Shown: positions 2,269 through 54,989 of the stretch, piece after piece
How the letters are laid out: each line of letters starts with the position of its first letter
Numbering within the stretch: position 1 is the first letter of the stretch
NCBI GenBank assembly: GCA_033182465.1
Contig: CP137323.1
Location: 2,542,001 to 2,606,000, forward strand
Source of the DNA: Sanghuangporus weigelae
Taxonomy: Eukaryota > Basidiomycota > Agaricomycetes > Hymenochaetales > Hymenochaetaceae
DNA length: 64,000 nucleotides
Direction: 5' to 3'
Notes under the pieces: model-generated
Databases searched by the model: none
Seen by the model: only the letters and a program-made list of their open reading frames with translations
What the model was told of the DNA's origin: nothing
Program-made: the position numbers and the translations under genes

Positions 2269-2591
2269 ATGCCGAGTAACGCGAACCAATTCTACGATAA
2301 CCCTTTCCACAACGAAAATGCCAGCACTTTGGGGCCCGATGGGAAGCCGATTCGTTATGTGGCTTGCAATTCTTGTCGCAGAGCACGACGCAGGGTTCGC
2401 ATGCGTCGATATCCTGGAAAAACTGTGTCTGACAAAGGGCTTGATACAGTGCGTCAGACCACACACAAAGCCTTTGATACCCTGCCGATGGTGTGTAGAA
2501 CATAGTCTCAATTGCGAAACTGTGAGTATGCAGAACTTCTGCAGGATTCTCAGGCGTACTGATCGGTTCTTAACAGGAAACGAGGGACTAA
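2269..2591 (+). CDS. Stand-alone Zn2Cys6 microprotein A (70 aa)
   Basis: Exons 2269-2394, 2450-2521 and 2577-2591 give a 70-residue protein. After a 30-residue polar Asn-rich tail comes a complete binuclear zinc cluster: Cys33, 36, 43, 54, 57 and 64, spacing C-x2-C-x6-C-x10-C-x2-C-x6-C, with the basic stretch RRARRR between Cys2 and Cys3. In Gal4-type proteins this module binds two zinc ions and contacts CGG-type DNA half-sites. Here it ends six residues after Cys64, with no linker, coiled coil or fungal regulatory domain. Intron 1 (donor GTTCGC, weak; acceptor GATACAG) falls exactly before Cys43; intron 2 (GTGAGT...AACAG) falls two residues after Cys64. The start is the first ATG after the TATA box and is aligned with the 9536 paralogue. 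The same exon layout in that paralogue makes the model strong. Function beyond DNA binding is unknown. Confidence 0.8.
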
Positions 2592-3010
2592 ACGAGGAAT
2601 TCAAATTGCTCAGCTAGAACATCGACGAGAGTAGGAGAGGCTAAACGTTATGGGGATTTGTGAATCGTGGGGACACGTTCCTAATCTTTAGTATCAGGCC
2701 GTGAGATAAGCATGCGGCCTCCAAGTCGTGACGATAGCCAAACCCTTGTGGAAGTACTATATATGAACAAATGTCAATAGAATTTAATAACGGTGAAGCA
2801 AACAAACATGGCCGGTAAATAACGTACTTGCAGTGCACTCGCTGAATCCCGAGATCCCGGTCACGGATAGTCCGTATCTAATTCGTTTGCTGAAGAACCA
2901 TAAGCTCAGCTGTGTTTTTCTCAAAGCTCATTAGCAGGCGACCATACGAAAATGGATATCTGCTGACTTTCCCCATTTATAACTGGTAGGCGAATTTGAG
3001 TGAGAACCCG

Positions 3011-3019
3011 ATATATAAG
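3011..3019 (+). promoter_or_regulatory. TATA box of the 3128 zinc-cluster gene
   Basis: ATATATAAGA lies about 115 bp upstream of the ATG at 3128, at a position comparable to the TATA boxes of the paralogues. Confidence 0.45.
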
Positions 3020-3127
3020 AACCGAGAGAGTTCAAAGTCTCAAAGAGTTGAGTGAGGGTATCATCACACGAAAGCCGCAAAAACCGATAACGAGAGGCCT
3101 AGGACAACTCTTCAGCACTCTACGATC

Positions 3128-3594
3128 ATGCCGAGCTACCAGGAATCAAATCATCTCTTCACTAGCCAACAGATAAGGAACTCGCTGACCGCAAGCCATC
3201 TCAATCGCGACGCGCAAAATTCGGGAGACCAAAACCTGAACATCACGGTTGCGATCCAGCAGGGCCATGTCGCTTTTTCTGCTCCCGCATCCTCGACTCC
3301 GATGCAAAGGAAGACTCGCCGCCTTATTCCATGCAGATCGTGTAGAAGGGCTAGACGAAAGGTGCGGTTGCTGTTGATCATCCAACGAAGAGATTCTGTC
3401 CAACGATACTTGCGAATCAGTGCTGCAAGCCGCAAACGATACCTCTGACTGATTGTGATTGGTGCAGAGAACGTTCCCTTCATTGCGAGACGGTGAGTAT
3501 ACAGCCGTATCCTCGCGTTCTTTGCTGATGTGTGCGAGTTCTCCAGGACATCAAAGCCAAGGAGTCGAAGAAGCGCCGCGGTGCCGAATCGTGA
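3128..3594 (+). CDS. Stand-alone Zn2Cys6 microprotein C (117 aa)
   Basis: Exons 3128-3361, 3421-3492 and 3547-3594. A 68-residue polar N-terminal region rich in Gln, Asn and Ser precedes the zinc cluster: Cys69, 72, 79, 90, 93 and 100, spacing x2, x6, x10, x2, x6, with RRARRK between Cys2 and Cys3. An extra cysteine (Cys80) directly follows Cys3. Intron 1 (GTGCGG...AATCAG, phase 0) sits before Cys79 and intron 2 (GTGAGT...CTCCAG) two residues after Cys100, as in the other small genes. The last exon adds 15 mainly basic residues (DIKAKESKKRRG...), a possible nuclear localisation signal. Its neighbour 540 bp upstream is the shorter paralogue at 2269, in the same direction, so they look like an old tandem pair. 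No activation or dimerisation domain is visible. Confidence 0.8.
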
Positions 3595-6037
3595 TGACAG
3601 AAGCGCATCTGATGGAGCTTGGTAGAGTCTCAGCTGAGATAAAATCATAAAAAATGCCGAGTCGAGATTTCCGATCAACACGTGGAGGAACCTAGTTTTA
3701 TGCTACGCCCAGAATGAACCAGGAGTAATGCCATGAAACTTCACGAATGTATTGGCACTAGGAAACATTTCAACAATAAAGAACAAAAGACACTCAACAT
3801 TCACAAGAAATGCTCTTACTGCGGTTCGGATAAGCAAAGCAGGTCACTACATTTATAGCTGCTTGACGTAGACGACGCTTCATCTGCTTAACTTCAAGAT
3901 TTCTGCATTTTCGCTTGCTCCGAGCTGGAATTAGATATAAGACATTAAGCTGTTGCTTTCGGAGAGGGACATTGATGTGGGGCATCTGTTCTGAGGAATT
4001 CGAGGGCAAGAGATGCTGGTAGACGTCGAGCTCGTACGTCAATACCAATCTAGAGGTCTTCGCCTGCGCTTTCCTTCGTCATCCGATCTGCTGCTCGATG
4101 AGACCGTCATCACATTGCATTGACAGAGCCATAGAATTGCTACAAATCAGCAGCAGGATAATTCCGTCAATAAAAGAGACATGGATAGCAGTTCTTTCTC
4201 TCTACCTCTCTAGACTGAATGCCATGCAATCCGAGTTTCTGCATCGGAACGGAGTCATCCTCAGAGATGTTTTGTGGGAATCCGTATAGCCATATTGCGC
4301 GTGGAAAATAATATAAAAATTAAGAAAAATGAACGGGCAGCTATACATACAACAACTGCTGTATCCGGGTGAGTGTAGGACCGGGGGCAGTGGCGATTGG
4401 AGCGGTAAGGCACGTGAACGTGAAGCGTCCTGCTTGCTCCAGCTCCAGCGCGGTAGGAGCCTGTGCTCTCTCAACCTCGACGATACCAGCTTTTTTTCGT
4501 CCTTTGGTAGCAAAATGGCTGCAGATATAGGCTTGAAGGTTTCTCGGAGTGTTTCGAGACTCAGCGTGTACGGGCACTCCTAACGTTAGGCAATGGCAAA
4601 ATACTGTCATGTCAACCCTGGTCCCGAATCGATGTCCTACTAGGCAAAACGGCCTGCGCAACAGAATCACTAGCGTTTCCATCCCCGAGGCAGAAACGAA
4701 GAATTTAAAAGGGGTATTGAACATGCAGGATAACTAGGTGGCTGAGATCTCGTGTGGCTGTTGGATACCACCAACTAGTGAGTGACTCTTCGCTTTCAAG
4801 TTCTGATAGCTGCCTGAGCGTCATTATCTCTGTTTTATCGACTTTTTGAGTTGATATTTGAAGGGATCTACGTGGATCATCAAGACTGCGAATCTCTGTT
4901 GATTTCTCTATTAATTTCGAGCTCCACCGTTGACGGGAGCAATCTGGGAACAAACTTACCATACGTCTTGGTTACGGCACATGTGTATTATAAGTCCCTA
5001 CTCTTAACTCAGAAGCTAAAACAATTGGTTCGTTCCAGCTTCCTTCTTCAGAGCCTGAGACTAAACTCCGTCATCAGATGCGCTGAAAGATCAATTGGAA
5101 TGGGATCTTGCAAAGATAGGGAAGATGCTACCGACACCATCAGCTCATCCGACAACCGCCTTCGGATCGCAGGACACCTGTTGATAGGTATACTGCCGCA
5201 CATGGAAGCAAAGTGCCACTTCAGGCCCTTGCTAGAGACTTGCCAGGAAGACGTCCATTGTCAGCGACAGTTTTTCCCCATCAAAGAAAAGTATAGACGT
5301 TCTGCAGCTCTCTGGCTTCCGCAAGTCGCTAGATTGACTCGTGGGCTATACAAAGAGCGGCATTCGTCAGAACGACTGAGGATATCCGTCTGATCCTTCG
5401 AGTTCATATGGTCTTCACTCGTTGGGTGACATTTGTGGGATGTCTGCACAGGGACAACCGAATTTAAATATTGCATTTACGTTATTCCAATCTTTGCGAT
5501 CTTCGTCCGTGGAGCGGCAAGATACGTGCGCTGAATCACGCGATGAATTTCAATTTGGAAGGCTAGGAGATAGGAAGTAGTCAAGGCGTCAGTACGCGAA
5601 TAACGCGATGGGCCTGTTTCGAATGAGTCTGCGGACCTATATAGAGTCTCCTTCCCCCCACGAGTCTCCACCAACTCTCCGTGGCTCCCATTCGACGTCT
5701 ACCTCCGTTGAATCGACGCAGAAATACACTTCGCCTTACTAGTTGCCGTCCGGCAGCGCTGTTCGCCACCAGCCTGGCCAGGACCGGGTCCTCAATAGCA
5801 GGAAATCACCTAACGAAATAGAACCTATGGTCAGCTTAGTTTCGGTATCCTCGAGCATCTTAGGATCCCTGACCTTTTGTACCATAGTCCATGAGCACAT
5901 CATGGTCCACGATCTGTCTGGATTTCGAGGAGTAGATGCCGCAAGTTCTTCTTGTGTTATTCGTCGAGACACGTGGGCCCTGCGCTCTTCATGCGCGACA
6001 CAATACTAACACGTTTTCATCCTAACACTGAAGTATA
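3595..6037. other. Gene-poor stretch with unassigned open frames
   Basis: Several open frames of 60-180 codons exist, the longest at 4851-5393 (+, 180 codons) and 4341-4724 (-, 127 codons). None shows a recognisable domain, a start preceded by a TATA box, or introns that join it to a neighbour. Parts of 4851-5393 read acceptably in more than one frame, which suggests a decayed gene. I assign nothing here. Confidence 0.4.
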
Positions 6038-6430
6038 CACGGTCTGAACTTAAGCGTGCCGCAGGCTGCCAAAGCACTCGTCGAACCGTGGGACGAACGC
6101 GAAGACACATTGCAGTATGTTGGTTTCAGCGTCGATGACCAGATGATCATTCATATTCTGTTCATCCAGAAAGTGCGAGTGCATTCCATCCTGCTGAAGT
6201 TGGGTGAGTTCATTTTTGAAAACAAGCTTGAGAGTGTCCTCTAACCACGAAATGATTGGGAAAGGACGTGGAGAACCGGCACCTAGACACCTACCCATAC
6301 ACGAACCATACTAATATCATTGATTTTGCAGAGGCCGAAACAACGAAATTGCGGCTCAATATCTCTGCTCGAGTAGGAGACGGGTGTGGTGGAGGATCTC
6401 TTCGACCAGCAACAATTCCCATGCCGCTAG
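6038..6430 (+). pseudogene. PITH-domain protein pseudogene fragment
   Basis: The reading frame from about 6038 gives GLNLSVPQAAKALVEPW, then VDDQMIIHILFI and VHSILLKLG, which match the order of motifs in the PITH domain (the C-terminal, probably proteasome-interacting domain of the TXNL1/PITHD1 family). After an intron-like gap the match continues with GRGEPAPRHLPIHE in one frame, NHTNIIDFAEAE and LNIS in a second, and an ETGVVE-like stretch preceded by a stop in a third. At least two frameshifts and an in-frame stop break the domain. The N-terminal part and the last third of the domain are missing. This is a decayed copy; a working gene presumably exists elsewhere in the genome. Confidence 0.7.
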
Positions 6431-6700
6431 ACCGGAGATCCGTGGAAATCGACTGGGAATCGGCTTCCACTTCCTTTCTTAGTTGTGATCTTGCATTATC
6501 CGTTGCTCATTGTATTTCTACGTGCCACAGTTACCTTAGGCGACAATCGCCTGTCTCGAAGCAGCCTGTCGGCACGGCAGGTGGCTGGGATATGACATCC
6601 ACGAAGTGGTGGATAATTTTGTATGAATTGAGTCACTGCGGTTGGCTTAGAAGATTTGTCAAAGTCGTCTCCCTGTACCCTTTTCGAGGTCGCGCCCGGG

Positions 6701-6709
6701 TACCAATAA
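6701..6709 (+). promoter_or_regulatory. TATA-like box of the 6795 zinc-cluster gene
   Basis: CCAATAAAAC lies about 90 bp before the ATG at 6795. The paralogue at 14720 has GGATAAAAGA about 105 bp before its ATG. Confidence 0.35.
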
Positions 6710-6794
6710 AACCCGGCCTGACAAAGTGGTGGTCCCGTGGCAGTCTCCCCTTCTAGCACCTTCAGACACAAGATCGCTCGGCTCAACTTCAGAT

Positions 6795-7542
6795 ATGTCA
6801 AATTGTGCATATTACACTGGGCGTAGCTATGCAGCTCAGCGTCGCAACTACAAGAACTGCTCCGAGTGTAAGAAGGCTCGTCAAAAGGTAGAAGGTCTAA
6901 CTGACGCTGCCCCTATACGTTCTGACTAACCCGCGCATCTCAGTGTGACCGATCTGATAGTGGCGCCTGCAAGCGGTGCGCTCGCTACAATAAGATATGC
7001 AGTTTGGTAGACTCTGCGGGTCTCATTGGCACGACAAACGCGGAATCGGTAACTCCCTCTGTCAACTGCACCTCCTATTTCAGCTTACTTTCCTCGTTGG
7101 CAGGCTAGATATGAGTTGCAGAGGTAATGACTTCTCTTCAAGTTTCTTGACTCTCCTATTTTTCACGATTGGCTCAACCTTGGCGCCTTTTAGCTCTCCC
7201 GTTGAAGAGGACGTCCAGCGTTTTGGCGTCATCCTTTACATCCTGCCGATCGATGGCAACGGACTTGTCGAGATCACTCATGTCAGGATGGGCGTGAATG
7301 GACAGAACCAAGTCTTCAGGTCTCGATGCGACAAGGACAACAAGCCAGTTGCTATGCCAGTTTATCTGGGCCCTTGGGTAAGCCCCTATTGTTTCACCAT
7401 CCATCATCAGCGTTTGAAACGGAAATTGCATTATTTCATGATTCTCAATCAGGATGAATACTTGAGCAGAATGCAAGCTTCGATGGCCACCGTGCACATC
7501 CAGGATATGGAGACCTGTGCGGAGCAGTTGGGCACAGACTAA
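6795..7542 (+). CDS. Zn2Cys6 protein with a new C-terminal domain, copy D (163 aa)
   Basis: Exons 6795-6887, 6944-7048, 7104-7123 (20-nt microexon), 7194-7377 and 7453-7542. The N-terminal zinc cluster has Cys22, 25, 32, 40, 43 and 50 (x2, x6, x7, x2, x6), with KKARQK between Cys2 and Cys3, and the usual phase-0 intron before Cys3. About 97 residues follow that match no family I know: QRFGVILY, then ITHVRMGVNGQNQVFRSRC, then PVYLGPW, then a last exon with YLSRMQASM. The alternation of hydrophobic residues suggests beta strands followed by a short helix. The paralogue at 14720 has the same exon phases, and exons 3, 4 and 5 are identical in length (20, 184 and 90 nt), which is strong support for both models. 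I infer a nuclear DNA-binding protein whose C-terminal domain binds a ligand or partner; that is a guess. Confidence 0.8.
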
Positions 7543-8799: not shown

Positions 8800-9390
8800 T
8801 TTGCCTTACCTTGATCGTCGACACCTATCATCAAACAATTCCTCATTGAAGGTGATCGTTACTGGGGTTAGAGCTTCGCTTGAAGTGGAACATTCCTGCG
8901 CAGACCTCTCCGAGCATCTGATGAGCTCTGGGAGAATTGATCTCCTTGATTCTTTATGATCGTCCTTTCTCTACAAAGAAAGGGTCAAATGGGCGGTGGG
9001 TAGAATGAATCCGGCATGGTTTATCCTATCTGTTGCTATAGATTCCTTCCAAAAGCTTTGCTCGAAGTGAAGTCTATAGTGTTGGATAGCTCTTTGATCC
9101 GGAGGGGGGAAATTAAGAAGCAGTTGCTCGGGATCTAGTCTCATACAATGGGGCTCTTCTCACACGCATACACTCAGTATCTACTTCATTTATCTCTTCA
9201 TTACGGCATCTTGTTGTCAAATTTCGTTCTTAATCTTTCACGCTCGTCACGACCGAACAGGTCTTTTCGCCTTCGCGGAAAGAAATAAGGACTGGGCTGT
9301 GCTTACAAACAGAGTACAGACTAGCAACCAAAAATGGTCGTCTTTCATCTTACCCGTGATGAAGTTGCTCGAGGCGGGCTTCTATGAAGT

Positions 9391-9400
9391 ACATAAAATA
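9391..9400 (+). promoter_or_regulatory. TATA-like box of the 9536 zinc-cluster gene
   Basis: ACATAAAATA, about 145 bp before the ATG, at the place equivalent to TCTATAAAGG in the duplicated copy. Confidence 0.4.
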
Positions 9401-9535
9401 CCCCTGGGTAGTCTTTATGGTTGTAAGTCCAGTCCATTGTATATCCTTTGACGAGTTGTGAGTGCAACACCCTTTATAGAGTCGAGTAAATTCACTAACC
9501 AAGGCTCGAGATTGATAACCAACTGATCCATAACC

Positions 9536-9863
9536 ATGTCGAGAAACGCGGGTGGAAACTACAACAACCCTTTCCACAACTACGATCCGACCGTTTTAGT
9601 GCATACTAATGGGAAGCCAACTCGCTCTGTGGCTTGTATCTCTTGCCGAAAGGCTCGGCGCGAGGTATGCAAGTTTTGATGCCCCAGAGTTGCAATCTAT
9701 GACAAAGGGCTTCATACAGTGTGTCAGACCGCAGACAGTGCCTTTGATACCCTGCCAGTGGTGCGTCGAACATCATCTCACTTGTGAGACTGTGAGTATG
9801 CAAGACTTATGAAGATGTTGAGACTTACTGATTGCTCCTTCTTACCAGAAACCGAAGAACTAA
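9536..9863 (+). CDS. Stand-alone Zn2Cys6 microprotein B (71 aa)
   Basis: Exons 9536-9664, 9720-9791 and 9849-9863 encode 71 residues. The zinc cluster has Cys34, 37, 44, 55, 58 and 65, spacing x2, x6, x10, x2, x6; the basic stretch is RKARRE. It is preceded by GKPTRSVAC, which matches the GxPxRxVAC motif in the other small proteins. Intron 1 (GTATGC...ATACAG, phase 0) splits the cluster before Cys44; intron 2 (GTGAGT...TTACCAG) follows Cys65 by two residues; the final exon codes only KPKN and the stop. It is the duplicate of the 2269 gene: the two share most of the cluster, including VRPxTxPLIPC and WCVEH. There is no regulatory domain. The clean retention of six cysteines, two introns and a stop at the same place argues that the gene is functional. 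Confidence 0.82.
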
Positions 9864-10280
9864 ACGAGGAAGATTCGGCAGAGCTTCAATGAGAATGAGA
9901 CTCAGAGTGAAGGCTACATGACCAGGGGTATTGAATATAGAGGCATTTTCCTAATACTTTTGTACTTCCCCTGAACAGTTAGAGAAGTAATGTTAAGAAT
10001 TACTGATCGAGATTCTTGGCATCTACATGAATCCTGTCCCGACTCGCTTGAAATGAATGTACAAAGTACGATGGTACAAGTTCGAGACGTCAAACTGTGT
10101 ACTCATCTTCTCACGCCAAATGAGGTCGATGAGCCTGAGATCGCCATCTTAGCTACATGACGCAAGGGAGCAATAGCCCGGTTGCCTTGCTTGAAAATCA
10201 TTAACAGGCGACCATACGAAAATGATCATCTTCCGTCGGTCCCCAATGAACCCTTGGAAGGCGAATTGAGTGAATGAGTC

Positions 10281-11210
10281 ATACATGGTACAGTTGGATA
10301 GCATGCCGAAAACTCAGTCCCTGCTTTCCGAGTCATGACATTAGTATTCACAGATCTGAAGGAGCCCCTCGAATATACAGAAATTTGCTACCCTTGCTCC
10401 TAGTCAATGTTCGTTCCAAGAGGAAATTAAGAAGCTAATTGTATATTTTTTGGCTTTTCTCACGGAACAGTGGGATTTACTGCTTTGAGGTGTGAGAATT
10501 CACACCACGTTCCGAGGGGAAATACACTTTCAATAGACATGTTCAGAGCATACTGACCGCCTTGAGCTCCTGATCCGTTCCAACCAATTCCTGAGTCTAC
10601 TCGCTTCCTGGGGCCCCAAGGCGAAAGTAATAGTCGGCTGTCCAATTGAATCCTGGCAATCTGAACAATATCAAGCGCTTCCTATAGGAGTCGGCATCCT
10701 TCCGATTCTTTCAAGGCGCGTCAAGGCCAAATGCGTTAAAACTCGGCGCGCTTTCTGAAAGCTCCGGCTACACCATTTAGCCTAAAATGCGTTTTTGCAA
10801 TTGAGAAAGGTGTGGGTTAAACCTGATTCATGAGGTAGGGCCGACCTTGTAGACGAGTTCTCTGAAGTGAACCAAGGCGGAGTAAGCAGACACTGAATCT
10901 CGTGGCGTGAGTCGATCTGATTGAAATCTGACCCTAACTGCGTGTAAGTGTTAGAATATGTGAAACATCTTCCCTTTGTCATTGTTGCAAATCCACGATC
11001 GGTATTTACTATTTTAGCGACTCGTCCGGCCGGATTTACGTAAAATAGGAAGGGCTGGTAAACGCTGACGTCGGTTGCTTAATTCCAGGTTCCTTCCGAC
11101 AAGTTTGCACTTTTCAAAGTAGAGCGTCGGCTACACGGCTCGCAAGGCGATGGACATAGATTGTAATCTGCTCTTTATTTCTCCTTCCGGGTCTTTCAAG
11201 GCGATCTTGT
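10281..11210. other. Intergenic stretch, no gene seen
   Basis: Only short, unconvincing frames on either strand. It ends at the promoter of the next zinc-cluster gene. Confidence 0.5.
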
Positions 11211-11219
11211 GTATATAAG
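11211..11219 (+). promoter_or_regulatory. TATA box of the 11343 zinc-cluster gene
   Basis: GTATATAAGA ends just before an ATG at 11220, so that ATG is too close to be the start. The next in-frame ATG, at 11343, is about 130 bp downstream and is preferred. Confidence 0.5.
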
Positions 11220-11342
11220 ATGAGATACACCTCCGACGACATTATTAGCTCTTCTTCTGTCCCACACAGTGATTCATACCGGATAGAACAAGGCCCTCGT
11301 TTCGCCCTCTTGACTTTCGAGATCAAAGCGAGTGTTGTCTTC

Positions 11343-11995
11343 ATGACGTCGTACTACGATGCCTGGGCGCTAGCACGACAAGACACGGATGCCACGGAAA
11401 AGGATTACCATAGCCCGAGTCATCAGAGTGCTACCACACCAAACTCCATCGACCAGTCTCCGAATCACCAATTTCCGAACTATCATTCTGCATCCTACCA
11501 GTATTCGAATGAGCAGAACAAGAATCTCCAGAACCCGACTTTCATGAGCACTGCGATTCCCAACTCGCACGAACTGGACTTGCACAACTTGATCCCGCGC
11601 ACATGCACGTGGGACAGAGCGTATCACCAGACTCCGAGGTCTGTACCAGGATTCGATCTACGAAGTGTCACTTATCTCTTATTATCCTTAGCACACTGGC
11701 GAGCACAAGTGGAACTCCAAAACGTCCGGTCCCCTGCGAAAGCTGTAAGAAAGCTCGACGTGGAGTATGATTGTTTTTGAAAAAGCAGAAACGGACCTTG
11801 GTTGAAAGATGTTTTGATGCAGTGTAAGAGAATTCAAATGATTCCGCCGATCCCATGCGATTGGTGCGAGGCGCACGAACTCGAATGTGTAACGGTGAGT
11901 ACATAAGCCTGAAAATTCTTTGTTCTTCGGACACTTATCATTATCCGTCTCTGTATCAGATACCGAAAGAGAAGAAGAAGAAAGGGAAGAATTAG
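11343..11995 (+). CDS. Stand-alone Zn2Cys6 microprotein F (158 aa)
   Basis: Exons 11343-11638, 11692-11764, 11823-11894 and 11960-11995. A ~100-residue low-complexity N-terminal region rich in Asn, Gln, Ser, His and Tyr is followed by the zinc cluster at the extreme C terminus: Cys114, 117, 124, 135, 138 and 145, spacing x2, x6, x10, x2, x6, with KKARRG between Cys2 and Cys3. It is preceded by GTPKRPVPC, matching the family motif GxPxRxVAC. The intron before Cys124 (GTATGA...ATGCAG) and the intron two residues after Cys145 (GTGAGT...TATCAG) are at the family positions; there is one extra intron in the N-terminal region. The last exon encodes IPKEKKKKGKN, a strongly basic possible nuclear signal. 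The Asn/Gln-rich tail could act as an activation or condensation region, an inference from composition only. Confidence 0.78.
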
Positions 11996-13702
11996 ACGGA
12001 GATGATGAGCGATCCACCCAGACGAAACCATGTCCGACAGCCACGTCTCGGTCCCTAAACATATTGGTCCTCCTACATAGGACTCAACACCGATTTTTGA
12101 ATGCCAGAAAACGAAAAGAATGCCAGCTGTAATATAATCATAGAAGCGTGACTGGTAGACCTGTGTAAAAATAGATTAAACGTGAACAACAAAGAAATTA
12201 ATGAAGAGCTACCAATTCCAGATCTATGAACTGATACGCACCTGCGCAAGAGATCTGAACTCAGAGGGGGTCGACTGTTTTCCGATCGAACTGTGCGCCG
12301 TATTCCGCTCTCTAGAGCGAGGAAACCGGGACTATAACTCTCCAGAAATATGGCTGGAAGAGTAAACCGGTATTTTCTATTACCATCGAATACTAACAGA
12401 GGAGATTAAGAGTCGCAAACACTATTTTTGGTTTCCATCAATTAGAATGGACTCAAGCGAAGCGAGCGCACGCACGAGTCTGGACAGCCACCAATCTATA
12501 TAGCGACGGAGTTAGACGTTAGACATGATCAACAACCAGCTGGTTACGCCTCTTCGTTCTGGACATTGCCATCGAGTGAATCGTCGCTGGTTCTGCTGAT
12601 TACCTCAAAGGAACAGACCGCAAGAACCATCAGCGTTTGTCTATACTGGTTGACCTTTGAGATGATCGTCAAATCGCGAAAGGATCCGAGACGAAAGTAC
12701 AGATTTATCGCTTGAGAAGATATTTCAGCCCTCACCGGGTGCTATTTTGCCTGTAAGGAGGTGGCGGTGACCGAAAGAGAAACTGGGGCTGGTGATCGAC
12801 GGCGACGCGGAGGCAAGGATGTTCGGTCTCGGTCTCCGGGTCAGGCGAAAGAGGCACCTTATCAGGACACGCCTTCTTTCCCTCGAGCCATTCGCCCCAG
12901 TCTGCACTCTGAGAGCCTGGTTGGCCATGTCGCTCGCTCCGGAGACCTTTGCACGAGCGTACAAAATGCGGAAGACGTGTACTGCACGATAAACCATAAA
13001 CCAGAGACATGGTTACCGCTATGGCAAGATGCATCGACCAAGGCAGGCAGAGGAACATCCAGACCTCGGTACAGTTCCAGTCGATCTTGATGATGTGACG
13101 ATGGAGTTACGGAACTAGGCTGGTCGTGCTCGACGATAGTTTCAGTCTTTCAGATTTGATGGAACGGCTTTATCGGTAAGTGTCAGTGGCATGCCTTTCT
13201 GCCAGAACGAGGTAGTGAACGGCCTGTCTTCCTTATAGTTGTACCTGCTATTCCTACGTACATCTTTCGAAGTTTTCCTTTAGCTCAACGAACAAACCGT
13301 CTTCTGATAGTTTCCATCGTCATTGGTCCTCATCCAGTGTTCGAAGAGGACCCGTCATTGAACCTATACTCTCTGAAAGCTTAAAATCTTGTCTAGAAGG
13401 ATGGCTAGTATGTCTTCGGGCAACCTTCCTGACATCATCTGAAATCCTTTCCGATGGTGAGCACAAATTCCCAGATTGTCGATTCTTTGCTCACCTCTCT
13501 TATCGGCAAATATAAGCATTCGAGAACTCTCGGTATTCGGAGTATCCGAAAGCGACTGATCTGTTTTGAAAACAGACGTTTTGGCAGATAGTCTAGTAAA
13601 CTGTGACGAAGAGCTCATCAACAGGATGGACTCTTCCCTCCAGGACACGTGAAGACTCTGCGCCTTGAATAGCTGGGTTTACTAGCCGCTGGGCATCTGC
13701 TC
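11996..13702. other. Gene-poor stretch with unassigned minus-strand frames
   Basis: On the minus strand 12544-12735 reads as 63 residues and may be a last exon. It is preceded by overlapping frames at 12725-13058 in both orientations that cannot be resolved by eye. At 13364-13648 (-) a 94-residue frame ends with RLPEDILAILLDKIL, which resembles the start of an F-box but is cut by a stop. I cannot build a supported gene from these pieces. Confidence 0.35.
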
Positions 13703-14040
13703 ATGGATGATCGTAGTCAAGCAACGACTGAACGGAATGGTTCCCCATTGCGAAGGAACGGCATGCCGTACGCTTCTGTGATCTCGCAAATTGCCTTTTA
13801 TGCAGGGTCTTTCAAGTTGAATGGGATATGGAAGCAAAGGAATTTGAGCATTGCGCTTATGTACATCTGCAGCTTCGAATTCCTTTTCCCGTGGCGCTGG
13901 AGCGGAGTGATAGTGGCGTATCTGAATTCGACGTCGAATTGAAATTTGGGCTGAAAGGAAAGCGATATCAGACCGCGTTTTACGCACGGGATCGATATCC
14001 TTGGAGTACGCACTATTATAAGTCTACCCATGCATCATAG
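13703..14040 (+). CDS. Small hypothetical protein resembling part of the D/E C-terminal domain (99 aa)
   Basis: Exons 13703-13767 and 13806-14040 join in frame across a short 38-nt intron (GTACGC...ATGCAG) to give 99 residues. The segment EFDVELKFGLKGKRYQ resembles, in pattern of hydrophobic and small residues, the region around ITHVRMGVNGQNQVF in the 6795 protein and its match in the 14720 protein; both are followed by a PW pair some residues later. No zinc cluster precedes it. It lies 680 bp upstream of the 14720 gene in the same direction. It could be a decayed relative, a stand-alone copy of that C-terminal domain, or chance. The 38-nt intron is shorter than others here, which lowers confidence. 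Confidence 0.3.
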
Positions 14041-14719
14041 ATACCCACCGAATCGTTTTCGACTTCTTTCGACCTCCGTGTCACCCAAAGTGGACCTTAT
14101 GGTGCATCCCATCTTCGTCTGGATGGGATGTCCAACTACGCGTAAACGGTACTCATCGCTTCGCCGCCTGCCAGTGGATCTTTTTCTGTTCTGCATAGAT
14201 GGTCCGGTCACGGAACGGTCATATCGTTGAATCCGTTAGTATCTCGATCCTTTTTCTGATCGAAAACTGACGACAGTTGTTTGTGTCTTTGTGCCAGCAA
14301 AGCGGCGGACTCGTGAGGGATCGGCTTCCTTTCCGGTTATCAACAGTGACATTGTACGCCCAAGGCATTTACTTGCGTCCTATTAAACGTTTATTTCGCC
14401 TCTGATCGACTCAGAAATTCCCAGTCTGACAATCGCCTGGGTCAAGAATGTCTGCCGCAGCAGTTATTCGACCAGAACGGCGATGTGCCGAGCATTGTTT
14501 TCGCCTGATGGCGGAGCTTTTGTATGTAAGAACTTCATTTCGGTATATCACGCATTGTTCTTGTCGAAAACTCGCCTTTGGGATACCTTTTTGGCCTGTC
14601 ACACCCTACATGAGGATAAAAGACGGACTGTGGCCCCGCCTTATCACGATCGCCCACACTCGCCGCGTCTGCACTCGTCCGCGACTTGAATCCAAACGAC
14701 GTGACCGATATCAACAAAC
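14041..14719. other. Intergenic stretch upstream of the 14720 gene
   Basis: Open frames near 14448-14876 run through the promoter and first exon of the next gene and show no domain. GGATAAAAGA near 14614 is a plausible TATA-like element. Nothing else is seen. Confidence 0.4.
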
Positions 14720-15473
14720 ATGGCGCAGCCCACATCGGAGATTGCTTCAAGTTACTGCGCGTTCTCTACTGCTCGTGCTTACGCTGCTCAGCACCGCAAC
14801 TACGGGAATTGTCAGGAATGTAAGAAAGCACACCAGAAGGTCCAGGCGTTCGCCTTTCTCGTCTCCTAGCGTCTGACCTATTGGTGTCTGCAGTGCAATG
14901 GATCAGATGGTGCCGCTTGCGACCGTTGTATAAAGCTCAAGAAGGAATGCAGCTTGCTGGACACGACAGGCCCCATTCGTTCCCCTATGGAGGCACACGT
15001 TGTAAGCTCACTTCCTCTCAACTTGGTCATCCCTCTGCCTTACTTCCGTTACCTTTAGAGCCAACTTACGTCTCAGAGGTATCTCATTATGTCTCATGTC
15101 ATGCCAGGCGATAAAATGGCTGACGCTGCCGCGCAGACCTTCCATCGTTGATGAGCGGCAGCGTTTTGGACAGATATTGTATGCCAGGCCTTGCGACGCT
15201 GGGGCGTACATCGATGTGATCCATGCCCGAATGGGTGTCAACAACCATTGTCAGGTCTTTAGGACTAAATGCGACCGAAACTTCATCCCTGTCGCCCCCA
15301 TTGAATACCTCGGGCCTTGGGTGAGTCACCAATGTCAGAATATCTTCCATCAGTATCTGAAACGTCCTCATCTGAATCAATAGGCCGAGTTTATTAGCAG
15401 GATGCAGGCATCGATGACTGAGGTCGATGTTGCAGACATGATCACGATGGCGTTCGAATCCGATACATTGTAG
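14720..15473 (+). CDS. Zn2Cys6 protein with a new C-terminal domain, copy E (173 aa)
   Basis: Exons 14720-14839, 14894-15001, 15059-15078 (20-nt microexon), 15137-15320 and 15384-15473. The zinc cluster uses Cys31, 34, 41, 49, 52 and 59 (x2, x6, x7, x2, x6), with KKAHQK between Cys2 and Cys3; the phase-0 intron (donor GTCCAG, weak) lies just before Cys41. The C-terminal domain matches the 6795 protein over its length: QRFGQILYARP, VIHARMGVNNHCQVFRTKC, PIEYLGPW, FISRMQASM. Spacing between these blocks is unchanged and exons 3-5 have the same lengths in both genes. Sequence identity is only moderate, so the pair has diverged under constraint. Outside the window's own two copies I do not recognise the C-terminal domain. 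Confidence 0.8.
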
Positions 15474-32106: not shown

Positions 32107-32199
32107 ACATTCATACAGTATCGCACCTTGCATTGTACTATAACCACTTTTAATTGTCACACGCTGTTAGTGATCTATTCGGAAGGTTGCATTAATATA

Positions 32200-34162: not shown

Positions 34163-34792
34163 ATGTCAAACCCAGACTGGCGCTGGCCGCAACAACACGT
34201 ACCGTTCGATCAAAATCCCTCTTATCCCACGGCCAATGCGCAACAACCGTTCGTCAACTTTCTTGCAACCCAGTCCGGTTCGATGAATGGTGCTCTTGTG
34301 CCAACTACGAATCAGAACTCCGGACAACAGTTTCCTCGACATGTTCAGTACAATTACGGCACAATGGCCAGTCAGGGTGAACAGGGAAGCTCAAATTGGC
34401 AGCAGCAATTCCAGCACTACAACCCTCAGAACCTTAGTCTCACTAATGGTTTGCCGAGGCGGTCCGTGGCCTGCGAGGCTTGTAGGAAAGCACGTCGTAG
34501 AGTAGGTACTTCGCATCTCCTTGTCGTAATACCAGCTGACATCTGGCGTGGTCGATTGATCAGTGTGTACGGCCTGAGATTCCTGGATACGACCCAGCAC
34601 TCTTGACTTGTCAGTCTTGCATGGGACAGGTCATTCCTTGCGTTACGGTCAGTTTGTTTGTCGTTTCTGACGTTGAACATGAGACTAAGCCAGTCGTATC
34701 TTTTATTTTTTTTCGTACCTTTACTTCCCTCTTTACTCCCTATATGACATTATCACTCGCAGAAGACTAAACGGACTCATCCCTCCACTTAA
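34163..34792 (+). CDS. Stand-alone Zn2Cys6 microprotein G (150 aa)
   Basis: Exons 34163-34501, 34564-34647 and 34763-34792. About 100 residues rich in Gln, Asn, Pro and Ser lead to the family motif GLPRRSVAC and a C-terminal zinc cluster: Cys104, 107, 114, 129, 132 and 139, spacing x2, x6, x14, x2, x6, with RKARRR between Cys2 and Cys3. The longer loop (x14) differs from copies A, B, C and F but is within the range known for Zn2Cys6 domains. Intron 1 (GTAGGT...GATCAG, phase 0) precedes Cys114 and intron 2 (GTCAGT...CTCGCAG, longer than in relatives) follows Cys139 by two residues. The final exon codes KTKRTHPST. The Gln/Asn-rich region could be an activation domain. It lies 1.4 kb after the MITE and before the FAD oxidase cluster. 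Confidence 0.8.
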
Positions 34793-35275: not shown

Positions 35276-35800
35276 TATGATCCAAGATGGTATTGTTATT
35301 ATACAACAATACGAAACTGCTACATATCGAGCTGGACTAGCAGCAGCGAAGGGAAGAAACAGAAAGTAAGAAACCTACTATAAATAACTTGAATGATAAA
35401 TTTGAAAACGCAAGCAAAGTATAACTCACTACATAGTCCTTATCTCAATTCCAAAGATTAATGGAATAATCCGTTACATTCCCCTATTTTTTTAACCCAC
35501 TCGGATATATAAAGGCGACTTCGGTTCCCACTTTGCACGGCTCGCTCACGTTTCCTTCTACGCCCAGGTGCCCAAAGCTATGCCCAAACAATCCGCGTGG
35601 TTCGTGCTTTCGATTGAGTTCGCATAGGTAGTCGCAATTTTGCTGAAGCAGCACATGATAAGCGAGGCAGATACCGGACGAGGAACCATGAGAGAAGTGG
35701 TAGACAAATACTGGTTCGACCGAAGTAAAGATGAGGAAAGTACGACTTACAGGCGGGATGTTCCACCTGAAAGGTGACGAAAACCCTCATAGAGTCCATA
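35276..35800 (-). pseudogene. Duplicated 3' fragment of the FAD-linked oxidase gene
   Basis: This segment repeats about 35960-36420, the 3' end and downstream flank of the adjacent oxidase gene, in the same orientation. Shared pieces include GGTATTGTTATTATACAACA / GGTATTATTTTACAGCA, GGCTCGCTCACGTTTCCTTC / GGTTCGCTCACGTTCCCTTC and GAACAATCCGCGCGGGT versus CAAACAATCCGCGTGGTT. In the fragment the codons for the C-terminal YDPRGLF-type motif are disrupted, and no upstream exons are present. It is a truncated, non-coding tandem copy. Confidence 0.75.
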
Positions 35801-36160
35801 CCGAACGTACATGGGAACTAACTGCTTTCCCCCGAATTCCCTTCCTAGAGATAACGTATGATGCCCTTTGAAACGATGACCCTATATTGAATTTTGTAGC
35901 CTAATACCTCGATTTACGACTTTATTTTTCATGCCCACGCAACCAAGTTTGCGAAAGATTCATGGAGATGGTATTATTTTACAGCAGTACAAAACTACTT
36001 CAGATCGGGCTGGATCAACAACAGTGAAGCCACAGAAAACAAGAAGCGTACTATATACAATGATGGATTCACGATCGAGCGAAAACGCAAACAAGATATA
36101 AGTCGTTCGTCCTCATCTCAATTCCAACACAACAGAGCAGCCCGGTACATCTCCCCTGCC

Positions 36161-39100
36161 TTATTCCTTGAGTTCCCTCGGATGCATGATAGGTGACTTT
36201 GGCTCCCGCTCACACGGTTCGCTCACGTTCCCTTCTTCGTCCAAGGGCCAGAAGGTATGCCTGAACAATCCGCGCGGGTCATATTTTTGTTTGATCTCGC
36301 ATAGGCGATCCCAATTCTGGCCGAAGCAGCCCATGATACGTGAGGCAGATTCGTGGCGACCGAGGAACTTTGAACGGGGCAAGGTTAGCTTACGAGTTCT
36401 CCGAGGAGAGCAAATGGGAAGAAGACGACTAACAGCAGGGTATGGTCCGCCAGTGGATACTGGTGATAGCGTCTTCTCAATCCACTGCAGAACGGAGTAA
36501 TTGATCAGTTAAGTCTCAGAAACAAGCGACACGCAATGCAACTGTATGACAAAGAACTCACATGCTCAGCGGTGGTAACGCACAACGGATCATCATCGTC
36601 GAGCTCCCACTGATGGAACGCCGCAATCGTGAACCCAGCTTCACGTTGTGCTTTGGGAAGACACGTGTCGTCGGCATCTCCAACAGCGCCTCCAGCCAAT
36701 TCGAATAGCCAAGCTAGTTCGGAGAATTGTAAGATTCGTTGTTTTCCATAGAACGTAAGGATGGAAGGATAAAAAACGCACTGCACCCAATTGGCGTATC
36801 TGCGAACTCGTTAACAGTCTTGTGGACAATCTCGTCTGGCAGCGAGGTTATAAGCGCCGATCGAATAAACCACTGGCGACCAGCTACGAACTCAAAGTCA
36901 ACACCATCTCGAACACACAAACATACAGAGCGAAAAAGTCACTCACCTTTCCCTCTCAATATCTGCGCAACGCTATCCTGCTGCGCCAAAAAACTCTTCT
37001 CGCTAACCTCGTTCAGCAAGCACGGTTCGCCATCCCAGCTCTCAATAGCCTCGAGGAACTTCCTCCCTCTTTCTTTGTTCCCAATGTAGCAGAGTTGCAC
37101 GACGACGAGGGAACCTTTATCCGCCGGCCCGGCTGTGAGGAGGACGTTTGCGTAGAGCTCGTGAGGTGCAGACTTGACACAGTCCCGGAAGTGCTTGATG
37201 AGCGAAGCGGCTGTTGATGGGTGGAAGTTGCTAAAGGGGAATAATTAGATATAGATAATGGAGCGGCAAAGTTACATATGTACTTACTAGATGAGGTTAC
37301 CCGCAAAGACTATGGGAACAGGGAAAGCCTTTGCCTTGTATCGCGTCACGACTCCAAAAGCGGGACCAGCACCACGAAGTGCCCACCAAAGGTCTTCACG
37401 ATTGAACCAGAACGAAGAGCATATAAGAAATGGATATAGACAGAATTTCCATCAATGTAAGCGTTCATTTCAAGCCTAGAGATGCATTCAGAGATAAGAG
37501 TCAGACTGACCAGGATGTTCCTCCTCGTTGACGTAAATAATGCTCCCGTCCGCGAGGACCATTTCCACTTCGACTAGGGCGTCGCTTGAGAGTCCGTGCA
37601 GACGAGAGAGAAAACCGAACCCGCCCAGAAGCATCACACTTGAACCGTTAGGATGCGCAGCTCTGAAAATCATGAGGGAAATGTATAACAATTATTATAA
37701 TGATTTTCTCTAGCGAACGCGTACGCACAGAGGGATATGATACGCCACTTCTCCGGTATTCCCTCCAGGAGACATGGCAGGTAAAGGATGTGTAGCGGTA
37801 AAAATGTCGATATCCTTCTGTTTCTCTCCGGCACCGAAGGACACGTACGCATGGGGGTGGACAGGGGTCAATGCCTAATTACAAAAAATCAGTAAATAGG
37901 CATTGTGGGACGATGCTACTGTAAAGTATGACTGGACGTGACGTACATCTGTCAGGAAACTCGGCCTTGCGGGTCCATCGACACTGTCCACCATCATTGG
38001 AACGCTCGAAGGACCTGGCCTCTCTTCGCTCTGTTCATATCCCCTAGGCGGACGCACACCAATGGTCGACCTCAAGCCGATTCCCAACACAGGTGCGGGA
38101 GCGCTAGGCGGAGCGCTCATGTACCCAAAGGGATCTTCCGTACGGATGGTAAATGAAGGCGTACGTGAAGGTGGGGGAGGTTCCGCGTATTGAGTAGGTG
38201 TGGGCGTTTCCAGGCTTCTTTCTTCGGAGGAGTGATATTGTAAATGGGAGACGAGGGACGGTTGGTCATGAAATCCTGCTGAGATGGAGGACAGGATGCC
38301 TAGCGCTTCTGCCGTACCTATTCCGCCGCTATGACTTCCTTCGTGCTCCTTGGAAGAGTCACCGCTCTTGGGTCTGGGAGAACCAGGCGCACTACTCGGT
38401 TCGGTAAGCGCAGTAGATGCAGTCGACGTCGAGGCAGAGACGAAAGTTGAGGCGGAGGTAGAAGTTGACATAGAACCATCGTTCGAGAGTGTTCTGCCAG
38501 ATTTGCCGTTCTCGCTCTCAGAAGAGGAACGGCGCGTCATAGTCATGTTACCGCTCCCTAGGCCCGGTTCTGCGCCATTGTTTCTGCCATTTTCTGCCAC
38601 ACTGGCTTCGACCTTTGGAGCAGACGATTCAGACGATCCCGGTGTGGTGGGACTGAAGAGGCTATCGACATCGAGCCGACGTCTCACCGCACGAGACGGT
38701 TCGTCAATGTCGAGGTTGCCTGTCTGCAAGAACTTTGCGACGAGCGCGTCATGCGGCAATTGACTTGAGCCCGAACTGAATATCAGAGCTGAAGATATGT
38801 CCGCACTACGCCTCCTCTTTCCGTTGTTTACCTCTTTGCCATTCTCACCGCTTGCTGCCGTCCCCTCGACAGACTCATTTGATGCAATCTTGCTTGAAAT
38901 CCCGTCATCTTTCGCCTTCCCTTTTTCATCCCGCCCGAACGTCGACATATCACGCAAGCTCGTGTACTCTTTTCCTCCCTCGGAAGGCGAAGGAGCTTCA
39001 ATATAAATCCCATTTAACTTGCTCAAGTCGACGACGACGTCTCCGTTGATCGCCCATCCTGCTATACCATATCCTCCAGCCTTGATGGAGGGGTGGAGAG

Positions 39101-43436: not shown

Positions 43437-47565
<4,129 letters not shown>

Positions 47566-51088: not shown

Positions 51089-51515
51089 TTAAGGCATGGG
51101 GTTCTGGTTATTTGCCTGCTATAAAGTGAAGGCAAGTGTAAGAAGAATCCAAAACGCAAATATGACAGGAGCGAAGAGAAAGGAGGGGAAAAGGCGTACT
51201 GTAACACAAGGATATCCGCGAGCGAGGCAGTAGTCGCAGGATTGGGGTTCGCGACTCTGAGATGGTTGTGGACGAGAGCGAACACACTTTACTCAAATCG
51301 TTCGACACGGATTCGAAAAAGAAATATAAGATATAAAATGGAAAAGTCAGTGAAAGGGGACTGGTAAGAAAAACGAAGCAAAAAGTTACGCGGCGATGAC
51401 GGCGTCTGCACATTTCGCAAGCGACATAACGCCTTGGTACACCATTCGATTGGGCCAGATCATCTTGTGTGTAATTATAGAAGGTGTGCGACCAGTTGGA
51501 ACCACTGTTCGACAT
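51089..51515 (-). CDS. Stand-alone Zn2Cys6 microprotein H (80 aa)
   Basis: Minus-strand exons 51515-51390, 51286-51200 and 51118-51089. The 80-residue protein has a 32-residue polar tail with the motif GVPRRYVAC, then the zinc cluster: Cys33, 36, 43, 59, 62 and 69, spacing x2, x6, x15, x2, x6, with RRRHRR between Cys2 and Cys3. The phase-0 intron (GTAACT...TAAAG) precedes Cys43; the second intron (GTACGC...TTATAG) follows Cys69 by two residues; nine residues complete the protein. A TATA box (GCGTATAAAAGG on the minus strand, about 51646-51657) lies about 140 bp upstream of the ATG. It is one of two copies on the minus strand in this part of the window, with a loop length (x15) closest to copy G. 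Confidence 0.8.
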
Positions 51516-51645
51516 GAACGTGTGAAGGTTTTAGTGAATGGGCTTCTTGTGCAATAAATTCGAAGAAAAGAGGCAAATGGGAAGAGTGGCGAAAGAGCAG
51601 AAGCAACGAAGGCAAGCTGATGGAGTTCGACACATAGTTCTTGGA

Positions 51646-51657
51646 TGCCTTTTATAC
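51646..51657 (-). promoter_or_regulatory. TATA box of the minus-strand 51515 zinc-cluster gene
   Basis: The minus strand reads GCGTATAAAAGG about 135 bp before the ATG, the best TATA match among the paralogues. Confidence 0.5.
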
Positions 51658-51659
51658 GC

Positions 51660-54605
51660 TTGAGACTTCCAATGTCCTCAGTAGATGCGATGCGTAGACC
51701 TCCACAGTCTTGAAGGCTGAATGCGATGATCTAGAGCAACTGAAGTAAACCAATGGAATGTTTTTCGCCGACCCAGAAAAGAATCCATGGTTTCTGCTAT
51801 AGCGGAGGTTGGCACAGCTGGATGTGCGGCGCGCTCACACAACAGCTTTCTCATATGAAGAGCGGTTCTCGATAAAAATTGATCAAATTAGATGGTCTGT
51901 CGGTTGGGAACAAGCAATTAACGCGGCGGAAGGAGCAAATACAATGTCACCCTCTGTTTTGGCGCAGCCACAGACTCGCAGAGAGTCCGGAGACCTCGGC
52001 CCTGTGAAGACAGCAGGATTCGTGCATCACTACAGAACTGCCTGGCCCGCGGAGGTCAGCATAAAATCAATACAACACTGCAAAGAATCTAATTGCTGTC
52101 GCGGCGACGGAATAAATGATCGCTATTTGGCCCTCAGAGTCCTGGAGCATTTCATTATGGCTGATGCAGGTTGTAATCTAGGATTTCCACGCGAGAACAT
52201 GCGCATTCCACTGCATCGATCAAGCCCTCGAGTCATCCGTTTGAGACAGACCCGGACTACATTGTCAGTATTTGTGGATCGGGGAATGTATGCCCGACAG
52301 TACAGCTCTGGATTAGAAAAAAAGACATCCAATGAGGAAATCAGCAAGACATGACACAGCCTGATGGCAACGTAAAATCAATGGCGTTAGACACAAGTGC
52401 AAGCAATACTTTGAGACGCAAACTATGGTTGTATATGCTCATCTATTTGAGCGTAGTTGTATCTGCAGGACCGAAAGGAGCCAACATATGTCATGCAACG
52501 CGAGCACAAGACGCGAGAAGAGGGAACCAGTTCAGGGACGGAAGACAGGTCTGGTGAAAAAGACATACGTGCGAGATAGACAAGTAGTCTATTCTGAAGG
52601 TCTGTATTGTGCTGGCTTTACAGCCGCAGTCGGAAGGTCCAGGAGATCTCGTTTCTGACGGAGGCGCTTCACTATTAGGGAGTTGCATACTCGACAAGTA
52701 CACAACGAGATCAGATTGAAGATAATAGCGGCCAATGTCGGAGGCCCTTATGAGAATAGCTTTGGAAATGGACTGCCTCTAAGTCCTACATTAGAAAAGT
52801 CACAGTTGAATTATTCCGGAGGACCGTGACGGTGTTGACGTAGTAGATCTCACCTGACGAGACTGTCACATACGAGCCGTAATGTAGGATATCCCCATGC
52901 GAGACCGTGCGTAGCTCGCTACATCAATAAAGACATCAAGCTGTCTGAGGAAGAGTTGGATGATATTGCCAATAATGACAGGTCGGGACTCTGTACCGGG
53001 TGGTACAGTTCTGGATCAGAAAAAAAGTCCAAGGAGGATATCAGCGGAACGCAAGGAGTCACGGACACAGCCCGACGTTGATGTCGACCAAAAGCTTCGA
53101 ATACCAGATAAGCAATGCTATGTGACATAGAGTGTCGGCGTATATGTTTGCCGAAGTGAACTTGGTCGGAGCTGTAGGGTCAGAGGGAACGGACATGCAT
53201 CCTGGAACGTCGGTAAGATGTAGGAAGATCAGTACAGCATGAGATCGAAAACAAGTTTGGATTTGGGGGATCCAACAAGAGAAAGTCCCGGTTGTAATGC
53301 ACGAAGTCGACAAATAGTGTTTTATGGAGGAAACTAGGTGAATTGAAGCCACCGACAAAAAGACTCGCGTGCGTTTGTTTCACGGACACACGCGAACTTG
53401 AAGTGTCCATATCGGTCCGCCTCTAAAGAAGGTGCTTCCCTCTTTCACCAAGCGTGAAAAGGAATAAGATCGAAGTTGGAATGGCCTATCATGCGCCGGA
53501 ATCCGAGACATTCTAGTCGTGGAATGGTTATAAGTTGAACGCCAATGTCGATGTGTGGTGTGAAGACCAAAAGCATTGTCGTCGGTAGTCTCGTAACGTA
53601 ATCTAATTGATTGCATAATCAAATTGAAAAATTGTTGTCCCTCACCGGCTCATCTTTAGCGCGCGCTCTTCTTTCAGGTCCGACGGGGCTGTCCATTGTG
53701 TAAGGTAGAAAGATGGATTTAGATGAATCGAAGGCCGATTTGAAGATGGTCGATGTAGACAGGCTAGATATTTGATCGCTAACTTTGATGTAACCCAAGA
53801 GTAAATAATTGAGCAATGCATGATCAATGAATAGACATAGTTAGGATCTTGTCATTTCCTTGCTCTCACTTCATATGGGATTTCCACTTTTCTTTCACAG
53901 AAAGAGAGTTTTTTTATATGAGAATTCACGATCAGTTCGAAGATCTTTAGAAGAGTAAGCTTGAAAGAGACTCGATCATTTTGCTGCTGTACAGCCAGGT
54001 ACGTACGTCTTGACACGGATATGCTCCGTTCTCATCGGCTTTGAGTGTCAAATGTGGAGGAGCAACTTCATGAAAAGAAAACACGTAGATCCAAATAGCT
54101 AAGACAGCATCATGATGTGTATACGAGAATAGGCACAGTAGATGGTTGGACAGGAAACAGTAGGCCGACAGTTATTATATTTCTATTTTGAAACTTTGAA
54201 CCTGCCTTCTTCTGATCATTCATGATTGCTTATCGACATCGACGACTTAGTTTAACATGACGTGAATAGACACGCTTAATTTTCATAGCCGCATCAGAAT
54301 TCAATACCGTACCTGAGCTTATTCTCAAGTGACTTCCGACTAGTCTGAAACCAGCTCAAAGCAGATAAATTCGATCACTTGGAGTCATTTCCTTCCGTCA
54401 CTGTCAGCATCATATATAAGTAGGATATTGTCAGAAAACCAGCTGAACGAGGACGGCTGAATGGACATCGGCCTGCAAAGGGTCGATGTGTCGCCTATTA
54501 TTGGCACAAGGCAAAGCGGCCCGGGAAAAGATAAAGGGCCGAACACCTTTCCGTGTCCTCGAGGTAACATTGTAAGACGTCTTCCTCATCTCTACCACGT
54601 GTCAA
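51660..54605. other. Gene-poor stretch with diverged repeats and unassigned frames
   Basis: A 181-codon plus frame at 51809-52354 has no recognisable domain. The segments near 52300-52350 and 52990-53050 are related repeats (minus strand: GATATCCTCCTTGGAC...TTTTTTTCTGATCCAG and a near copy). On the minus strand near 53060-53100 the text VFEAFGRHQRR sits where a zinc-cluster core might have been. A small frame at 53641-53700 (-) starts MDSPVGPERRARAKDEP. None gives a supported gene. Confidence 0.35.
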
Positions 54606-54989
54606 TTAGTTCCCCGGGCGCTTCAAGAATGACATGGATAGGGTTTTGAAACGAGCGATCAGCTCTCAGCCAAACTCATCCATTGATGAATGGGCATACT
54701 TACAGTAACGCAGGGTATTCCTCGACTCTGACAATGCCGACAAGGGAGCAGTCTTGAGACATCGGTCGAAGGACGTTCACACTACACCATGCAAATATTT
54801 GGCATATGGTTAAGTGACGAAGTATCTTTGGACGACAAAGAAACTTACTCTACGCCGCGCGTTTTTGCAGGCTACACAGGCTATAGGACGTCTCGGCGTT
54901 CCTCTTGACGAAGCAAGATTAACGAGATTATAATTGACAAACGGATTTCCGAAGTGCGAATTTGAGCCAGAGTTAGAATTCTTGGACAT
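54606..54989 (-). CDS. Stand-alone Zn2Cys6 microprotein I (77 aa)
   Basis: Minus-strand exons 54989-54849, 54781-54704 and a last exon ending at the stop 54608-54606. After a 37-residue Asn/Ser-rich tail containing GTPRRPIAC, the zinc cluster has Cys38, 41, 48, 61, 64 and 71, spacing x2, x6, x12, x2, x6, with KNARRR between Cys2 and Cys3. Intron 1 (GTAAGT...GGTGTAG, phase 0) precedes Cys48 and intron 2 (GTAAGT...TTGAAG) follows Cys71 by two residues; the last exon codes RPGN and the stop, comparable with KPKN in the 9536 copy. A TATATATA box (about 55073-55083) stands about 90 bp upstream. No frame here is long enough to be noticed without splicing, so automatic annotation could miss it. Confidence 0.8.

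Follow-up and report, generated by a model that had tools for sequence, protein, structure and literature searches.

Seven short, locally clustered Zn2Cys6 genes in Sanghuangporus weigelae: candidate minimal DNA-binding regulators

Zn2Cys6 regulators are a major class of fungal transcription factors and are usually long and dimeric. Protein databases also hold many short fungal proteins that bear this domain label alone, so the short kind, though undescribed, may be common. Here, we describe seven stand-alone Zn2Cys6 genes in a 64,000-nucleotide stretch of Sanghuangporus weigelae (the window), which covers positions 2,542,001-2,606,000 of contig CP137323.1 (C6 in what follows; 2,713,098 bases). 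TerR35-138 of Aspergillus terreus is reported to be a monomer in solution that needs its basic arm for tight binding and mostly binds one CGG half-site, and AlcR of A. nidulans is cited as monomeric, with a basic N-terminal arm that helps (PMC4360782, PMC5559640). The available portions of two surveys of fungal transcription factors (PMC5415576, PMC3998117) do not deal with proteins of this kind. We found no open-access paper on Zn2Cys6 and microproteins together and, among the open-access matches listed, no description of a clustered stand-alone Zn2Cys6 family or of a Zn2Cys6-kinase fusion. An earlier reading of the window from its letters (the sequence-only reading) had likewise been aware of no such family.

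The domain belongs to a known class, and its stand-alone, clustered form would be a new variant of that class. We give a probability of about 0.5 to the proposal that the seven genes are a locally duplicated family of minimal, monomeric DNA-binding regulators. The genes, named by the window position of their start, lie approximately 116-169 kilobases (kb) from the end of C6. They are listed below with their exons and with the position of the TATA-like element relative to the ATG.

2269..2591, forward strand: gene 2269, 70 amino acids; exons 2269-2394, 2450-2521, 2577-2591; TATAAA at -141
1960..2268, forward strand: upstream region of 2269 with its TATA box, 74-75% identical to the upstream region of 9536
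3128..3594, forward strand: gene 3128, 117 amino acids, N-terminus of 60 residues; exons 3128-3361, 3421-3492, 3547-3594; TATATAAG at -116
9536..9863, forward strand: gene 9536, 71 amino acids, closest paralogue of 2269; exons 9536-9664, 9720-9791, 9849-9863; weak TATA-like CATAAAATA at -144
11343..11995, forward strand: gene 11343, 158 amino acids, N-terminus of 105 residues; exons 11343-11638, 11692-11764, 11823-11894, 11960-11995; TATATAAG at -131
34163..34792, forward strand: gene 34163, 150 amino acids, N-terminus of 95 residues with 31% glutamine plus asparagine; exons 34163-34501, 34564-34647, 34763-34792; weak AATAAAAGG at -123
51089..51515, reverse strand: gene 51515, 79 amino acids; exons 51515-51390, 51286-51200, 51115-51089; TATAAAAGG at -141
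54606..54989, reverse strand: gene 54989, 77 amino acids (74 if the alternative acceptor is used); exons 54989-54849, 54781-54704, 54620-54606 (or 54591-54586); TATATAAG at -89

All seven gene models share one anatomy. A phase-0 intron directly 5' of the third cysteine (Cys3) splits the zinc cluster. Another intron, also in phase 0, lies two codons past Cys6 and is followed by a tiny last exon; introns measure 53-115 nucleotides (nt). The two introns per gene expected from the sequence-only reading are found in six genes, and 11343 departs from this with a third, in-frame intron in its N-terminal part (11639-11691). The first intron of 51515 ends in AAG, and the acceptor of exon 3 in 54989 is ambiguous (AAG or TAG). 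Genes of this kind may be easily missed because an intron splits the cluster.

The predicted proteins are small (70-158 amino acids, four of them 70-79) and basic, with predicted isoelectric points of 8.5-11.1. Translation stops 6 residues after Cys6 in 2269 and 9536, 17 in 3128, 13 in 11343, 11 in 34163, 10 in 51515, and 6 (or 3) in 54989; the early stop was thus called correctly, and the proposed range of 4-15 residues widens to 3-17. None of the seven models leaves room after the cluster for a linker, a coiled-coil dimerization helix, or a regulatory domain, just as had been claimed.

The cluster itself is complete. Each protein satisfies C-x2-C-x6-C-x(5-16)-C-x2-C-x6-C, so the claim of seven full six-cysteine clusters, at these starts and on these strands and with a spacing of x2, x6, 10-15, x2, x6, is borne out. 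The loop between Cys3 and Cys4 has 10 residues in 2269, 3128, 9536, and 11343, 14 in 34163, 15 in 51515, and 12 in 54989. The box G-x-P-x-R-x-[VI]-[AP]-C, said to precede most copies, stands ahead of Cys1 in six; 3128 has R-K-T-R-R-L-I-P-C. The fourth position after Cys2, which we take to be the residue that contacts the CGG triplet in solved complexes, is basic throughout (arginine in six, histidine in one), and structure alignments place lysine of Leu3 and histidine of Put3 there, in matches that are not significant. Pfam Zn_clus (PF00172) matches all seven proteins with E values from 7e-6 to 0.05, 11343 having been entered as its last 58 residues. Two exceed the curated cut-off of 21 bits (23.3 and 26.4), four score 19.9-20.7, and one scores 14.2; the same Pfam comparison recognized no effector domain.

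Chance is a poor source of such clusters. A pattern for spliced clusters, applied to both strands, occurs 10 times in the window, nine times with basic residues at the two expected places, and not once in any of 60 dinucleotide shuffles. A looser version finds 11, and the cluster that the stricter pattern drops is most likely that of 51515, given its AAG intron end.

The seven look like genuine genes because of their TATA boxes, their common introns, and, in the closest pair, a constrained cluster. Five of the seven have a strict TATA box (TATAWA) between -50 and -170 from the ATG, against 4.2% of random windows from this region; a looser pattern, picked after inspection, is present in all seven, against 4.9%. 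Gene 3128 begins 537 nt past the stop of 2269 and has its own TATA box. In the 35-codon core of 2269 and 9536, 26 nucleotides differ, distributed 2/8/16 over codon positions 1/2/3, and the resulting 8 amino-acid changes compare with a neutral mean of 16.0 (0 of 5000 randomizations as low). By the NG86 method, the 42 codons of box and cluster in this pair have a nonsynonymous distance (dN) of 0.15 and a synonymous distance (dS) of 0.95, and exon 3 with its stop also aligns between the two. Synonymous distance is saturated, and so undefined, in 17 of the 21 pairs among the seven genes and in 22 of 28 when the kinase gene described below is added; despite this, the six cysteines and both cluster introns are retained in every copy.

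Five proteins (2269, 9536, 34163, 51515, and 54989) carry a common N-terminal segment of the form [YFW]-x(2,4)-F-x-[NH]-[YE]-x4-L ahead of the G-x-P box; in 34163 it sits at the end of the long N-terminus. None of 300 shuffles reaches the similarity of these five, which were chosen by eye before the test, and none of 200 reaches that of all nine members together, the two members beyond the window included. In addition, the box position is preceded by 60, 105, and 95 residues in 3128, 11343, and 34163, respectively, with 16-31% glutamine plus asparagine. The strong divergence outside the cysteines that had been reported holds only in part, given the motif that these five share. Similarly, in the suggestion of selection on a DNA-binding-only protein, "only" is too strong given the motif in five of seven, the long N-termini in three, and a kinase on one relative.

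Beyond the window, we scanned the 33.87 megabases of this single genome (13 contigs) with six protein queries: 9536, 54989, part of 34163, 3128, and two members from outside the window; 2269, 11343, and 51515 were left out as queries. These searches ran exon by exon with the best candidates scored, a design that relatives may escape. Family matches fall within C6:2,544-2,637 kb, approximately 93 kb, plus one relic on contig C2; past the window, the family of at least seven gains a further stand-alone member and a kinase-fused one. Elsewhere matches are weak (E 0.009-0.04 on C9, 0.08 and 0.15 on C5, 0.18 on C3). A genome-wide Pfam search, also exon by exon and listing matches at E ≤ 0.001, places none of its 28 matches on C6. 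The additional loci are as follows.

C6:2,612,305 (start), forward strand, beyond the window: extra stand-alone member, approximately 68 amino acids, its basic tail identified by eye
C6:2637363 to at least 2635884 (where the model was stopped), reverse strand, outside the window: predicted Zn2Cys6-kinase gene
C2:1,391,534-1,391,698, reverse strand: relic, open and intronless, matching residues 9-63 of 9536 at 44% (E 7.4e-8), spanning the exon 1-exon 2 junction

Aligned by hand with 9536, the C2 relic retains only Cys1 and Cys5 of the six cysteines. It looks like an old, decayed, perhaps processed copy of a short zinc-cluster gene and, since it reads across the exon 1-exon 2 junction, would as a processed copy support splicing there; at the DNA level, comparison with spliced 2269 and 9536 gave no convincing similarity.

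The Zn2Cys6-kinase gene is a gene prediction. Across a 53-nt phase-1 intron, its two cluster exons join in frame to a serine-rich linker and a kinase domain, in which VAIK, H-x-D, and DFG motifs were identified by eye; the first 377 residues score 111.5 bits with Pkinase and 21.3 bits with Zn_clus (cut-off 21). Like the short genes, it has a G-x-P-R-R-x-V-A-C box, a phase-0 intron before Cys3, and a place in the same chromosomal region, and its base-contact position is also basic. Unlike them, it has its second intron displaced and in phase 1, and it runs on into linker and kinase. No methionine precedes the ATP-binding lysine, so the kinase exon needs an upstream exon, and the zinc-cluster exon fits it in frame. 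Similar kinase exons occur at 12 places on C8, C2, and elsewhere on C6, the fusion itself included. The C8 paralogue is preceded by 491 codons of charged, helix-like sequence; no zinc cluster was found within the 1475 nt read, and the open frame extends further upstream. The simplest story is that a kinase gene captured the zinc-cluster module locally.

If the seven genes are minimal regulators, each transcribed gene would yield a protein that consists of an N-terminus, a short arm in which one arginine is invariant, and a complete Zn2Cys6 cluster, basic at the base-contact position, and that then ends. Lacking a linker and a dimerization helix, such a protein would bind DNA in monomeric form; by analogy with the TerR domain, its targets would probably be single CGG-type half-sites. 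The F-x-[NH]-[YE]-type motif of five proteins is presumed to be a docking site, and the outcome would be either recruitment of a partner through it or passive occupation of the sites of longer zinc-cluster factors. In the fusion, the module would tether the kinase to the same sites. A bolder version, a zinc-cluster-guided kinase system in which the fused cluster tethers the kinase, eight stand-alone copies set, compete for, or mark its sites, and the module works without a recognized activation domain or dimerization, strikes us as quite improbable.

A number of observations weigh against minimal regulators. Genes 3128 and 11343 lack the N-terminal motif by eye, and together with the two members beyond the window they are dissimilar at their N-termini (105 of 300 shuffles reach the observed value). 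The 35-codon core was selected for its conservation, and few codons lie behind its figures; over all 66 aligned codons of 2269 and 9536, dN is 0.26 and dS 0.82, and the 24 N-terminal codons are without clear constraint (0.47 and 0.59). The flanks of this pair, at 74-75% identity, are no less alike than exon 1, at 69-71%, so the promoter may be constrained too. Solved zinc-cluster structures match without significance (best E 0.15 for Leu3 and 0.32 for Put3), and a protein-protein role of the cluster would fit the kinase fusion equally well. Finally, CGG triplets are not enriched in the 500 nt upstream of the nine members (7-18, against a mean of 11.8 and a standard deviation of 4.4), and CCGG reaches 4 in 2269 and 11343 (mean 1.2, standard deviation 1.2) and 0-2 in the other seven. 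Self-regulation through CGG sites is therefore not indicated, CGG showing no overall enrichment and CCGG being raised in those two genes only. An uncontrolled count of upstream 7-mers gave CTCTTCA in six of the nine regions and TATAAGA and others in five.

Three other explanations deserve consideration. The sequence-only reading saw the copies as possible microproteins that modulate full-length factors; the idea is possible in general, and its strict form, in which full-length zinc-cluster regulators are inactivated through occupied DNA sites or dead heterodimers, is unsupported and appears doubtful. The proteins are indeed short, with one recognized domain, no recognized effector, and a DNA-contact position that stays basic, but past the cluster there is no dimerization segment to trap a partner. 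Moreover, in the exon-wise genome searches, with the best candidates scored, no close zinc-cluster factor emerged outside the region (the best other cluster is C9:847561, E 0.009-0.04), the kinase is the sole longer relative that came to light, and the motif in five of seven suggests a role beyond passive competition. Somewhat less probable again is that the cluster is mainly a protein-binding module and that the short proteins serve a kinase pathway as adaptors, decoys, or substrates, with the Zn2Cys6-kinase as working partner. An in-frame cluster-kinase gene in the same region suggests interaction, its kinase exon depends on sequence upstream, and the C8 paralogue has helix-like sequence where no cluster was read; against this, the fusion is single and predicted, and a basic base-contact position in all seven proteins and the fusion is what DNA binding would predict.

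The least probable explanation is decay: the genes would be pseudogenes, left over from the 5' ends of once full-length zinc-cluster genes, or pieces of longer gene models. A position approximately 75-170 kb from the contig end, local duplications, and the decayed intronless relative on C2 fit this, as does one alternative acceptor in 51515 that gives a 111-amino-acid tail, judged non-coding-like by eye from its first 60 residues. With the other YAG acceptors, up to approximately 420 nt from the second donor, the tail is 0-51 amino acids long, and longer proteins through alternative splicing were set aside. Decay also sits badly with seven intact copies at mostly saturated synonymous sites, a constrained core and an aligned exon 3 and stop in 2269 and 9536, TATA boxes in five of seven, and a 3128 that starts so soon after 2269 with a TATA box of its own. 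Minimal monomeric regulators therefore remain the reading that we favor over all three.

The region is richer in zinc clusters than the family alone. Reading 194 kb of C6 gave 16 spliced Zn2Cys6 clusters of several kinds, all within 2,544-2,646 kb; the 60 kb that precede the window contain a single unspliced match that looks like chance, and in the final 30 kb read there are none. Four clusters of other kinds lie in the window, at 6858, 14810, and 61898 on the forward strand and 58685 on the reverse, and other subtypes follow past it at C6:2614305 (reverse), 2617326 (forward), and 2645744 (reverse), which makes this a zinc-cluster hot spot. A second pair of Zn2Cys6 genes occupies 6795-7542 and approximately 14720-15473, both forward, the first modeled with 163 amino acids in five exons. 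Its C-terminal domain of approximately 85 amino acids (RFG.ILY..P...V.H.RMGVN...QVFR..CD....PVA...YLGPW) is without a Pfam match and appears at these two places only in the genome search.

Twice, at 2269-7542 and 9536-15473, two short cluster genes are followed by a two-domain cluster gene; the two sets lie 7-8 kb apart, an arrangement that suggests tandem duplication of a block; DNA likeness remains between 1960-2599 and 9221-9871 and between 2928-3003 and 10198-10273. Other diverged direct duplications pair 22235-23166 with 24463-25361 (68% identity) and 35285-35672 with 35966-36350 (70%). A 30-nt inverted repeat (32193-32222 and 32781-32810, 93% complementary, 558 nt apart) is possibly a small transposon, and Rfam gave no matches in the whole window.

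A conserved family of proteins that consist of little more than the cluster would offer a natural test of the domain acting alone, and the neighboring kinase fusion an entry to the pathway. With Gal4-, Put3-, and Leu3-type regulators (PF00172), the proteins share the six-cysteine spacing and the basic residues between Cys2 and Cys3; unlike them, they are short (70-158 amino acids), have a C3-C4 loop of 10-15 residues, and carry no linker, coiled coil, or regulatory domain C-terminal to the cluster. They resemble microProteins in being short, at 70-79 amino acids in four of the seven, with one recognized domain, but the other three have 60-105 residues N-terminal to the box position. A microProtein sequesters a larger partner that shares its domain; of the relatives found here the kinase gene shares the module, and a dimerization segment is absent. 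A further parallel is with TerR and AlcR: a Zn2Cys6 domain with an N-terminal arm that acts as a monomer, as the short proteins, known here from their genes, may do. In TerR and AlcR, however, that domain lies within a full-length activator, and TerR may add a second monomer on some sites, whereas here the domain makes up almost the whole protein.

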